Source of the DNA: Xenorhabdus bovienii SS-2004
GTDB lineage: Bacteria > Pseudomonadota > Gammaproteobacteria > Enterobacterales > Enterobacteriaceae
Direction of reading: 5' to 3'
Assembly (NCBI RefSeq): GCF_000027225.1
Contig: NC_013892.1
Location: 3,038,001 to 3,102,000 of the forward strand
DNA: 64,000 bases
Positions within the stretch are counted from its first letter, which is position 1, and every line of letters begins with the position of its first letter. The position numbers and the translations under genes are program-made. Of this stretch, positions 43,878-49,120 are shown piece after piece. The notes under the pieces are model-generated. The model did no database searches and had not been told where the DNA came from. It worked only from the letters and a program-made list of their open reading frames with translations.

Positions 43878-44703
43878 CTATTCAATATGCTCCGTAAACA
43901 ACTCATCAACTGAACATCTTTTTTGCCTCCTTATCGCTTTTGCTCCGCCCCATTTGTGTTTTATAGGGTTTAAATCCGGACTATAAGCGGGAAGCCATTC
44001 CAGTTGACATCGGCTGTCTGCTATTGCTTGTGTCGTGTCATTCCGTTTATGGAAAGGCGCATTATCCATCACTATCACGGCTCCGTGTGGAAGCTTTGGC
44101 AGCAAATCTTGCGTCACCCACGCATAAAAAACATCGGCATTAATATTCCCGGTAAATAAGCTTAAGGTGACGAAGGTCTTTTCGAGAATGGCGCCAATGA
44201 CGTTGATACGGCCTTTTGCGTGCCAGTCATGCGTACCAAAACAGCGTAACCCTTTTTCCTAATATCCCTGTTTACGTGGCATCGATTGAGCAAAACCACT
44301 TTCATCCAAATAAACAAGGGGTCTGCCAGTCTGTTCATCATCGCTGATGTGCTCGATAAATGCCTGACGAGCTTGAGGATCAGCGCGAGGGGGTTGGAGC
44401 GTTTTTTTTCGGGGTGATATTCAGCCGTTTCAAGGCGTAATGAATAGCCGATTGTGAAACACTTAAACGTTTTGCTCTTTCCCATTGGTAGTCATCAGGA
44501 AAATTTTGGACATCCGCAATGAGTACCTCATCAGGGATTTTTGTGGCGGGTTTATCGCGGGTCATGCAAGGTTCTATTTTATTGCACCACCGGAACAAGG
44601 TACGCATGGAGATCTCAAAATGGGCACTCGTTTGTTCGAAAGTCAACGAATGCTTGTCTTTGTATGCCAGTACTCGCTTTCGAAAATCTAAGCTGTAGCC
44701 CAT
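43878..44703 (-). pseudogene. IS630-family transposase, frameshifted, with mutated catalytic Glu
   Basis: N-terminal part 44380-44703 (MGYSLDFRKRVLAYKDKH, helix-turn-helix) is intact, then a frameshift, then VYLDESGFAQSMPRKQGY (first Asp), a TAG stop, FGTHDWHAKGRINVIGAI and VIVMDNAPFHKRND (second Asp). The third catalytic position reads SPDLNPIKHKW, where active relatives have NPIEHKW. So there is one frameshift, one nonsense codon and a Glu-to-Lys change. It differs from the IS630 element at 20784. Confidence 0.8.
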
Positions 44704-45361: not shown

Positions 45362-45622
45362 ATGGCGCTATTAATTACTAAACGCTGCATCAATTGCGAT
45401 ATGTGTGAACCTGAATGTCCCAATCAGGCCATCACAATGGGCGCAGAAATTTATGAAATTGACTCAGAACGCTGTACTGAATGCGTCGGACACTATGAAA
45501 AACCAACCTGCCAGTCCGTCTGCCCGATCACCAATACTATTATCCTTAACCCTGACTATCAGGAAAGTGAAGAGCAACTGTGGGATAAGTTCGTGCTCTT
45601 ACATCACGCAGATAAGATATAA
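45362..45622 (+). CDS. yfhL: YfhL family 2x[4Fe-4S] ferredoxin
   Basis: 86 residues. Two cluster motifs: CINCDMCEPECP (CxxCxxCxxxCP) and CTECVGHYEKPTCQSVCP, the second with the longer inter-cysteine insert typical of YfhL-type ferredoxins. Cytosolic electron carrier; partner unknown. It is convergent with the acpS pseudogene, as yfhL and acpS are neighbours in E. coli. Confidence 0.95.
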   Translation: MALLITKRCINCDMCEPECPNQAITMGAEIYEIDSERCTECVGHYEKPTCQSVCPITNTIILNPDYQESEEQLWDKFVLLHHADKI

Positions 45623-45624
45623 AA

Positions 45625-45991
45625 TCAACTTTCCAATATCACCGTCGCACAGGCATAACGCCGTTCATCCGGCAGGGATCTTACATTCAGTTTGTCAGCC
45701 AGAGTTTCTGCTTTACTATGAAGTTTTAATGTAGTTTTTCCCAAGGAATCATTAATAACTTCAAACTGATTGAAAAACAGACCATTTCGAATACCTGTTC
45801 CCGGCGCTTTGCGGCGGCTTCCTTAACAGCAAATCGTTTTGCAAGGAAACAAATCGGTTAGTTATGATGCTGATATTATTGCCATTCTCTGTCACTTAAA
45901 ACACGTTTGCCAAGCGTTCACCAGAACGCTCGACAATTTTTTTAATGCGGAAAATTTCAACTATATCTGTGCCTAATCCAACAATAGCCAT
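45625..45991 (-). pseudogene. acpS: holo-[acyl-carrier-protein] synthase acpS, multiply disrupted
   Basis: Position and sequence are those of acpS, directly after pdxJ (ATG overlaps the pdxJ TAA). It begins [20 protein letters not shown], clearly AcpS, but loses a base in the AAA of LAK and stops at codon 33. In the restored frame come RVLSDREWQ, a TAA, YQHHN, a second TAA, then [16 protein letters not shown] second one-base loss leads to [20 protein letters not shown] and [14 protein letters not shown] with the normal stop; about four residues are also missing before DERRY. Five separate lesions rule out one sequencing error. AcpS loads phosphopantetheine on acyl carrier protein and is essential in E. 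coli. Confidence 0.93.
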
Positions 45992-46722
45992 TAACTGCGC
46001 GCTTCCCGCAACAACGTTTTCATATCGGCCACAGCAGCAGACAAACCACTAAATACGGCACGGCCAATGATGGCATGACCGATATTTAATTCATAAATCT
46101 CAGGTAAGGCAGCAATACGCTGTACATTGTGATACGTCAAACCATGACCCGCATTTACTTTGATGCCTTTACCCGCGGCGTAAGTCACCGCTTCTTTAAT
46201 ACGCAAAAATTCTTGTTCCTGCTGGATATCATTTTCTGCATCTGCATACGCACCTGTGTGGATCTCAATAAATGGCGCTCCCACTTCAGCCGCAGCGGCA
46301 ATTTGCTGGTGATCTGCATCGATAAACAGGGAAACAAAAATACCTGCTTCCGATAAACGCTTAACGGCAGCAGCAATATGCACTTTTTGCCCTAATACAT
46401 CCAAGCCACCTTCCGTTGTCACTTCTTGGCGCTTTTCAGGAACCAAACAACAGAAAACGGGTTTAATTTGGCAAGCAATATCAATCATTTCATCGGTTAC
46501 TGCCATTTCAAGGTTCATACGGGTTTGAATCGTTTTTGCTAATAGTTGAACATCTCTATCAGTAATATGGCGGCGATCTTCACGCAGGTGAACAGTGATC
46601 CCATCAGCTCCTGCTTGCTCTGCAACAAATGCAGCCTGTACCGGATCAGGATACTGTGTCCCACGGGCATTACGTACCGTTGCAATATGATCAATGTTAA
46701 TACCTAATAATACCTCAGCCAT
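45991..46722 (-). CDS. pdxJ: pyridoxine 5'-phosphate synthase
   Basis: 243 residues from [20 protein letters not shown], where AGGAG supplies the ribosome site; the frame to 46764 is an unconserved extension. TIM-barrel enzyme joining 1-deoxyxylulose-5-phosphate and 3-amino-2-oxopropyl phosphate in vitamin B6 synthesis. Seen are [16 protein letters not shown], the catalytic EIHTGAYAD stretch and [11 protein letters not shown]. Its stop overlaps the acpS start, so the two were coupled. Confidence 0.96.
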
Positions 46723-46790: not shown

Positions 46791-47528
46791 TCAATTTTCA
46801 TTTTTCTTATTAGGAATATCAGTTTTTTTACGTACGAATTGGCGAAATAACTCACGACTTTTTAAGGGCTTCCCCCCCAAATAAGGCTTCAGCGCAATGC
46901 GAGTAAAACGTTTAGCTGCTTTCAAAGTAAGCGAATCAGTAAATTCACCGGTTGCCAACGCTTTTAGTTCATTACCAGTAAAACTGAAGTGATCAACAAC
47001 CAGGCTAGCAATAAAGCCTTTTTCTTCACGGTAACGATAATTCATTGTATCTGACACAGGTTCACCACTACCTGCACAATGAAGATAGTCTACTCCATAC
47101 CCCATATTAGTTAGCAAGGCGAGTTCAAAACGACGTAAAGCATATTCAGGCGTGTATTCACTCGCCGCAAGAATTTGTAAACATTGAAGATAATCAAAGA
47201 AAAGCGCAGGATATGCCGCGCCTTGTTCAAGAACTCTGGATAATAGCTCATTGACGTATAAACCGCTGTATAGCACACTTCCTGTCAAGGGAAGCGCTAA
47301 TGAGATAGGTTCAGCATCCCGTAATATTTTGATTTCACCCCGTCCACTCCAACGAACAAGCAACGGGGTGAAAGGTTGTAGACAACCTTTCAGATGGGAG
47401 CGACGACGGCGTACACCTTTCGCTAAAACACGTACCCGCCCTTCATTTTCAGTAAAGAAATCCAGTAGTAAACTAGTCTCGCTGTAAGGGCGCCCATGAA
47501 GTACGAAAGCTCTCTGCCAGCCGTCCAC
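46791..47528 (-). CDS. recO: DNA repair protein RecO
   Basis: 245-residue recombination mediator of the RecFOR pathway that binds SSB and loads RecA. OB-fold N-terminus ([40 protein letters not shown]) and the helical C-terminal part are intact. Short distance to era upstream (10 bp) implies cotranscription. Ordinary. Confidence 0.95.
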
Positions 47529-47537
47529 AAATCAACC

Positions 47538-48443
47538 TTATAAGTCGTCGATGTAACCGAGGCTGCGCAGCGCTCGCTCATCATCAGCCCAACCCGCTTT
47601 CACTTTTACCCACAGTTCTAAATGAACTTTATTATCAAACAGCTTTTCCATATCCTGACGGGCTTCTATGCCAATCGTCTTGATTTTGCTGCCTTTATTA
47701 CCAATAACCATTTTTTTCTGGCCTTCACGCTCTACCAAAATTAAACCGTGAATGGTATAACCACCGCGTTCATTAGTAACGAATTGTTCAATTTCCACTG
47801 TCACAGAATAAGGCAGTTCATCACCCAGAAAACGCATCAGTTTTTCACGGATGATTTCTGATGCCATAAAACGCTGTGAGCGATCAGTAATGTAATCATC
47901 TGGGAAATGGTGTCCAGCTTCCGGGATATGAGCACGCACAATTTTGGCAATAGTATCAACATTCATGCCTTTTTCTGCACTAATCGGCACAACATCAAGG
48001 AAATTCATCTGTTTGCTGAGAAAACCGATATGGGGCAGAAGGATGGCTTTATCCGTGACATTGTCCACTTTATTAATGGCCAATATCACTGGGCAATGCA
48101 AATTACGCAGTTTATTAACAACCATTTCGTCATCTGCAGTCCAGTGTGTACCTTCGACAACGAAAATAACCAGTTCCACATCACCAATTGAGCTGCTCGC
48201 CGCACGGTTCATCAAACGGTTAATAGCACGTTTTTCTTCTATGTGAAGCCCCGGTGTATCAACATAAATGGCTTGATAAACTCCTTCCGTATGGATACCC
48301 ATAATACGATGCCGCGTCGTCTGGGGTTTACGGGAAGTGATGGATATCTTCTGGCCCAGTAACTGATTCAATAAAGTCGATTTACCGACATTAGGCCGCC
48401 CGACTATTGCCACAAATCCGCAATAGTTTTTTTCTTCGCTCAT
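47538..48443 (-). CDS. era: GTPase Era
   Basis: 301-residue essential GTPase in 16S rRNA maturation and 30S assembly, membrane-associated. G1 [10 protein letters not shown]3 DTPGLH, G4 NKVD, and a C-terminal KH domain with [16 protein letters not shown]. Start overlaps the rnc stop by 4 bp (48440-48443), the conserved rnc-era junction. Confidence 0.97.
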
Positions 48444-49120
48444 TCAAGCTCCAGTTGTTTTAATGCTTGTTCCGCAGCCGCCTGTTCTGCCTTGCGACGG
48501 CTGGAACCTACTCCTCTAACAGGTTGTTCAAATCCACTGATTTGACAGTGGATTGTAAATTCCTGATCGTGTGCTTCCCCACGAACCTGAACAACCAGAT
48601 ATGATGGCAACGGCAAATGACGCCCTTGCAGATATTCCTGTAAACGTGTTTTGGGATCTTTTTGCTTGTCGCCCGGGCTAATTTCATTCAAACGAGTTTC
48701 ATACCAACTCAATATAATTCTTTCAATTGTCTGAATATCGCTATCCAGAAAAATGGCCCCAATCAAAGCTTCAATGCTATCTGCTAAAATAGATTCGCGG
48801 CGATGCCCACCGCTTTTTAACTCACCTGGCCCCAAACGCAGACATTCACCTAGCTCAAATTCTCTGGCCAATTCAGCCAGCGTATTGCCTCGCACCAGTG
48901 TTGCCCGCATACGGCTCATATCCCCTTCATCAACACGGGGAAAACGGTGATAAAGTGCATTGGCAATAACAAAACTCAGGATTGAGTCGCCAAGAAATTC
49001 CAGACGCTCATTATGCTTACTGTTGGCACTACGATGAGTGAGCGCCTGAAGTAACAAATCATGCTGTATAAAGGTATATCCCAGCTTACGCTGTAACCTA
49101 TTAATTATTATGGAGTTCAT
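48440..49120 (-). CDS. rnc: ribonuclease III
   Basis: 226-residue endonuclease that cuts double-stranded RNA in rRNA and mRNA maturation. The catalytic signature is [14 protein letters not shown]; the C-terminal dsRNA-binding domain runs from [20 protein letters not shown] to the end. Upstream ~190 bp separate it from lepB; in E. coli rnc destroys its own leader, which could hold here. Confidence 0.97.

Follow-up and report, generated by a model that had tools for sequence, protein, structure and literature searches.

Decay of acpS in Xenorhabdus bovienii SS-2004 and the probable loading of AcpP by NgrA, the only phosphopantetheinyl transferase found in the genome

In Xenorhabdus bovienii SS-2004, acpS has decayed to a pseudogene, and the only phosphopantetheinyl transferase (PPTase) found in the genome, within reach of the profiles used and of its single contig, is NgrA. 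acpS counts as essential in Escherichia coli and as a drug target. We consider it very likely that acpS decayed by drift, here and in further Xenorhabdus lineages (at least three in all), after it had become redundant, and that NgrA, as the sole PPTase, would also load AcpP. The remnant lies in the window, by which we mean the whole 64,000-nucleotide stretch of DNA analyzed. Features are given in window positions except for ngrA, which lies outside it.

45991..45625, minus strand: acpS pseudogene (holo-ACP synthase remnant), recognized from its frames, an alignment with X. bovienii T228 and TIGR00516 fragments
45991..46722, minus strand: pdxJ, intact, upstream neighbor; an open frame, matched over its full length in the named loci used for comparison
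45362..45622, plus strand: ferredoxin gene, which we take to be of the yfhL type, intact, convergent neighbor; an open frame with a cysteine-rich 4Fe-4S pattern
46791..47528, minus strand: recO, intact, an open frame
47538..49120, minus strand: era and rnc, intact, open frames
About 3,417,371-3,418,117 of the contig: ngrA, 248 codons counted from the first start, 254 between stops

About 1 kb beyond the ferredoxin gene, the minus strand carries broken, overlapping transposase pieces (43878-44703), presumably IS630-like.

The remnant reads on the minus strand from an ATG at 45991 to a TGA at 45627-45625, and its start is overlapped by one base of the pdxJ stop. The order pdxJ-acpS, with pdxJ named from its recognizable product, is presumably that of E. 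coli. Frame translations revealed that successive parts of AcpS are spread over all three minus-strand frames, one per frame. We aligned the remnant with acpS of X. bovienii T228, an intact copy at the same pdxJ-adjacent place, and found 345 of 367 aligned bases (94%) to be identical. Relative to T228, two single bases and a stretch of 12 bases (four residues) are deleted, and TAA occurs twice in frame. A preliminary description of this DNA had reported precisely these lesions, between exactly these coordinates. The locus descends from acpS at its pdxJ-linked place. TIGR00516 matched it only as three fragments (46.6, 34.6 and 25.7 bits, one of them with two TAA codons), so that no full-length open AcpS frame over the curated cut-off of 59.8 bits is present there, and PF01648 gave no match at the locus at E<=0.001.

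The 22 substitutions between the remnant and T228 acpS were polarized with 17 further intact Xenorhabdus copies (intact named copies number 20 with T228; L039 and L044 were left out). Fourteen fall on the SS-2004 side, one on the T228 side, and seven are ambiguous. Over codon positions 1, 2 and 3, the 14 changes on the SS-2004 side are distributed 10/2/2, a spread not expected of a constrained gene, and the remnant decays like neutral DNA. The remnant has diverged by 14 to 21 changes over 367 sites, and the pairwise dS of the flanking genes between SS-2004 and T228 is 0.062-0.119. As a rough estimate, SS-2004 has probably been without AcpS for most of the time since it split from T228, because the divergence of the remnant approaches the neutral expectation for one side of that split.

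A comparison of acpS across Xenorhabdus had been proposed in the preliminary description. Carried out on 30 genomes of the genus, it revealed AcpS over the TIGR00516 cut-off in 27, the exceptions being SS-2004, X. stockiae DSM 17904 (G004) and the metagenome-assembled genome (MAG) Fux382_bin38 (G025, identified by a 100% match to L049 over 1,233 bases). The acpS of X. stockiae (L050) measures 206 bases from start to stop, against 381, and has lost its middle to an out-of-frame internal deletion. In the MAG, a near-complete deletion has left only 25-34 bases of acpS likeness between the pdxJ stop and the ferredoxin gene. The X. stockiae assembly is a draft in about 180 contigs and the MAG has a completeness of 82%, so acpS could lie elsewhere in both. 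Among the loci fetched through RecO, 78 of 80 had a full-length AcpS match (20 of 22 in Xenorhabdus including the MAG, 12 of 12 in Photorhabdus and 46 of 46 in others).

A species tree built from pdxJ, recO, era and rnc joins SS-2004 to T228 and X. stockiae to X. innexi, and both partners have an intact acpS. The MAG falls beside the X. stockiae/X. innexi pair (support 0.82). A single loss shared by X. stockiae and the MAG was considered and rejected, since the two lesions differ and X. innexi, which falls within that group with support 0.82, has an intact acpS. Given three different lesions and intact sisters, we infer that acpS was lost at least three times independently within Xenorhabdus.

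We searched the SS-2004 chromosome (one contig, 4,225,498 bp) with the profiles PF01648, PF17837 and TIGR00516. PF17837 (4PPT_N, E=2.8e-21) and PF01648 (ACPS, E=3.8e-15) each matched once in the genome, both times in the ngrA frame, which sits between what we take from their sequences to be galE and a mog-like gene. The product has the size and domains of an Sfp/EntD-type enzyme (about 220-250 residues, 4PPT_N plus ACPS). Its catalytic Asp-x-Glu (DxE) and Lys-Glu (KE) motifs are kept in the NgrAs of all 30 genomes of the genus. The meaning of such motifs is described in PMC4103896.

The name ngrA was anchored with the X. szentirmaii primer sequences given in PMC11936946. Both published primers map within the orthologue from X. 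szentirmaii genome G001, which matches X. szentirmaii L037 at 100% over 3,351 bases, and by this sequence evidence the lone PPTase of SS-2004 corresponds to the published NgrA. Among solved structures (11 sequences matched), the best match of NgrA was 7BCZ (E=1.1e-26; the next, 8.8e-13), an entry that PMC8433221 describes as PcpS-CoA; PcpS is reported to turn Pseudomonas aeruginosa AcpP1 into its holo form (PMC5686131). Over trimmed columns, the identity of SS-2004 NgrA is about 31% with PcpS and 27% with E. coli EntD. EntD is also its best NCBIfam match, at 101 bits under a curated cut-off of 169 bits, so NgrA falls short of the EntD equivalog. With a score below that cut-off and about 31% identity to PcpS, likeness is a loose guide to what NgrA may do. 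In one Xenorhabdus genome (G019:C71, L179), NgrA and AcpS are joined by a further Sfp-type PPTase, about 233 codons long and roughly 14% identical to NgrA.

SS-2004 has many carrier proteins to activate: of its 59 PP-binding matches, 54 lie in frames longer than 1,000 codons. By gene names read from the sequences, an AcpP with an intact DSL motif is encoded inside an open plsX-fabH-fabD-fabG-acpP-fabF run. AcpP is required for lipid A and lipoate synthesis. AcpP must be loaded, and since the search turned up no candidate other than NgrA, NgrA activity on AcpP is predicted by exclusion. The preliminary description had guessed at a substitute of the NgrA type and had named a second intact acpS as a finding that would speak against it. 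Profile searches of the one-contig chromosome with PF01648 and TIGR00516 found no second acpS (TIGR00516 matched the remnant only), and the guess gains support from NgrA being the single PPTase found, with its putative role in AcpP loading following by exclusion.

We interpret these observations as a sequence in which redundancy came first. NgrA would have been active enough on AcpP before the loss, and this prior activity would have made acpS redundant. acpS would then have been lost to drift in three or more Xenorhabdus lineages independently. From apo-AcpP, NgrA would now make the holo-AcpP on which the synthesis of fatty acids, lipid A and lipoate depends, and would go on serving the carrier domains of nonribosomal peptide synthetases (NRPS) and polyketide synthases (PKS), the task it is known for. 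NgrA was probably competent beforehand, because no residue of NgrA tracks the loss of acpS. We also favor, with less assurance, a wider reading: that NgrA loads AcpP throughout the genus, that AcpS is redundant and has been shed repeatedly, and that membrane and antibiotic synthesis are coupled, and ngrA essential, in strains that lack acpS.

Two observations sit less easily with this. E. coli has EntD and AcpT yet still requires AcpS, and an EntD-like enzyme may therefore not suffice. In line with this, acpS appears in PMC3423039 among the genes for which a model wrongly relied on acpT. In addition, ngrA transcripts of X. szentirmaii are reported to increase in stationary phase (PMC11936946), which is awkward for a growth-essential role.

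The strongest alternative is that NgrA was retuned, in sequence or in expression, in the lineages without acpS, making the takeover adaptive and lineage-specific and not a matter of prior redundancy. We regard this as unlikely. The ngrA dN/dS of the SS-2004/T228 pair (0.076) is the lowest among 14 pairs and is compatible with tighter constraint after the loss. However, the values of the other three pairs that include an acpS-less genome (0.111-0.122) overlap the range of the ten remaining pairs (0.107-0.279), and the pairs share genomes and are not independent. The NgrAs of the three acpS-less genomes share no residue that the other 27 lack, and every residue of SS-2004 NgrA also occurs in acpS-carrying species. 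The 350 bases upstream of ngrA differ between SS-2004 and T228 at seven positions.

It is far less probable that another PPTase was missed, either on a plasmid or outside PF01648. Our genome search covered the chromosome contig, where a plasmid gene would not be seen. However, Table 3 of PMC4079199 gives only a chromosome for SS-2004, while listing plasmids for two of the three other strains, and in a plasmid collection with 54 records matching AcpS, the 20 matches listed include no Xenorhabdus. PF01648 itself responds to both AcpS-type and Sfp-type enzymes, as seen in 60 of 60 relatives.

A sequencing or assembly error in a strain with an intact acpS is very improbable. Single-base indels are a common type of error, and one SS-2004 assembly lies behind the call. 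Against this stand the 12-base deletion, the two in-frame TAA codons and the 14 substitutions split 10/2/2. The flanking genes are open and differ from T228 mostly by synonymous changes (synonymous/non-synonymous: pdxJ 11/3, recO 19/9, era 12/0 and rnc 9/0; RecO is 96% identical to that of X. bovienii T228), and two other Xenorhabdus assemblies have larger acpS lesions of their own. We rejected base-calling error on the kind and number of the lesions and on the substitution pattern. Equally implausible is a strain that lives on host lipids and needs no holo-AcpP, since acpP and the surrounding fab genes are open and apparently intact, and lipid A and lipoate also require AcpP. SS-2004 is indeed described as a nematode and insect symbiont, but it has been grown in the laboratory (PMC4079199, mortality table).

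The loss of acpS balanced by NgrA thus stays our preferred reading, and it raises a testable question: can a broad secondary-metabolism PPTase make the housekeeping acpS dispensable? SS-2004 offers an unusually clean natural experiment. If the model is true, ngrA is essential in SS-2004 and its removal lethal, in contrast to the X. nematophila ngrA mutant. Knockout of ngrA, a usual route to an NRPS-null Xenorhabdus, should then fail in acpS-less strains. Our search of the open-licence literature found no report of this acpS loss and no X. bovienii ngrA mutant; PMC4630870 yielded nothing about the locus, and in PMC13280938 and PMC10945363 ngrA turned up only among the references. The preliminary description had called such a takeover notable; the takeover itself is supported by exclusion, but it has precedents, and the loss recurred at least three times in the genus. 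A lone Sfp-type PPTase running primary metabolism is already known from Pseudomonas, and Legionella has only one PPTase. What is new is that there are several origins inside a genus studied for its PPTase in antibiotic production, and that the old gene can still be read in SS-2004.

We also surveyed AcpS across the family in 391 genomes, drawn evenly with a completeness of >=95% asked for. AcpS was over the cut-off in 378. The 13 genomes without it are SS-2004, nine full-size genomes from four genera, one of 1.6 Mb and two of 300 kb. The two genomes of about 300 kb (G149 and G254, genus g121) have no PF01648 or TIGR00516 match and apparently no PPTase. From the 24 genomes of other families of the order, a subset of eight was given to TIGR00516, and seven lacked AcpS over the cut-off (the completeness of two of these is 89% and 92%). 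Loss of AcpS in itself is therefore not rare; unusual are three differing lesions inside one genus.

The survey also turned up two oddities among genomes that have AcpS. G417 had been suspected of lacking acpS from a weak PF01648 score and was rejected, as its AcpS is over the cut-off. In this one-contig genome, the acpS match is split (G417:C1:3424857-3425232, L194), with the first 16 positions as a separate weak match, from a frameshift or an error. Another family member encodes, beside its standard acpS, an additional AcpS-type enzyme that passes the TIGR00516 cut-off (G031:C6:37215-37568, L132).

The four other Enterobacteriaceae genera without AcpS (g4, g69, g81 and g160) provide a further comparison within the family. 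In each of the nine genomes sampled, PF01648 matches once and no AcpS exceeds the cut-off. Their Sfp-type enzymes group in a single clade apart from NgrA, to which they are 14-18% identical, and their takeover is unrelated to that of NgrA and probably single and older. In the sole PPTase of these nine genomes (L141, L143 and L145-L151), an arginine replaces the lysine of the KE motif (WTLRES-type). As far as the profile matches go, this arginine-bearing enzyme must serve all carriers.

Within Xenorhabdus, the NgrAs of X. nematophila and X. szentirmaii are orthologous to that of SS-2004 and are reported to be required for NRPS products (PMC12542672, PMC11936946). Unlike SS-2004, X. nematophila (ATCC 19061, G013) and X. 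szentirmaii (G001) retain acpS. The ngrA mutant of X. nematophila F1 is described as growing in LB like the wild type (PMC12542672), which shows that AcpS is sufficient there and is not proof for NgrA. E. coli EntD belongs by sequence to the same subgroup as NgrA, at the 27% identity given above, and works beside AcpS, which is described as loading the fatty acid ACP of E. coli (PMC4103896).

Legionella resembles SS-2004 in having one Sfp-like PPTase, no AcpS and several NRPS/PKS clusters (PMC5126622). It differs in that this holds for the whole genus; in the account given by the relevant parts of PMC5126622, no acpS remnant is reported and the loading of the fatty acid ACP is unsettled. Another close comparison is PcpS of P. 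aeruginosa, like NgrA an EntD/Sfp-type enzyme, and described as the one broad PPTase on which both primary and secondary metabolism of that species rely (PMC5126622). The role of PcpS is fixed in its species and has been shown experimentally; that of NgrA in SS-2004 is deduced, in a genome where the dead acpS is still visible.
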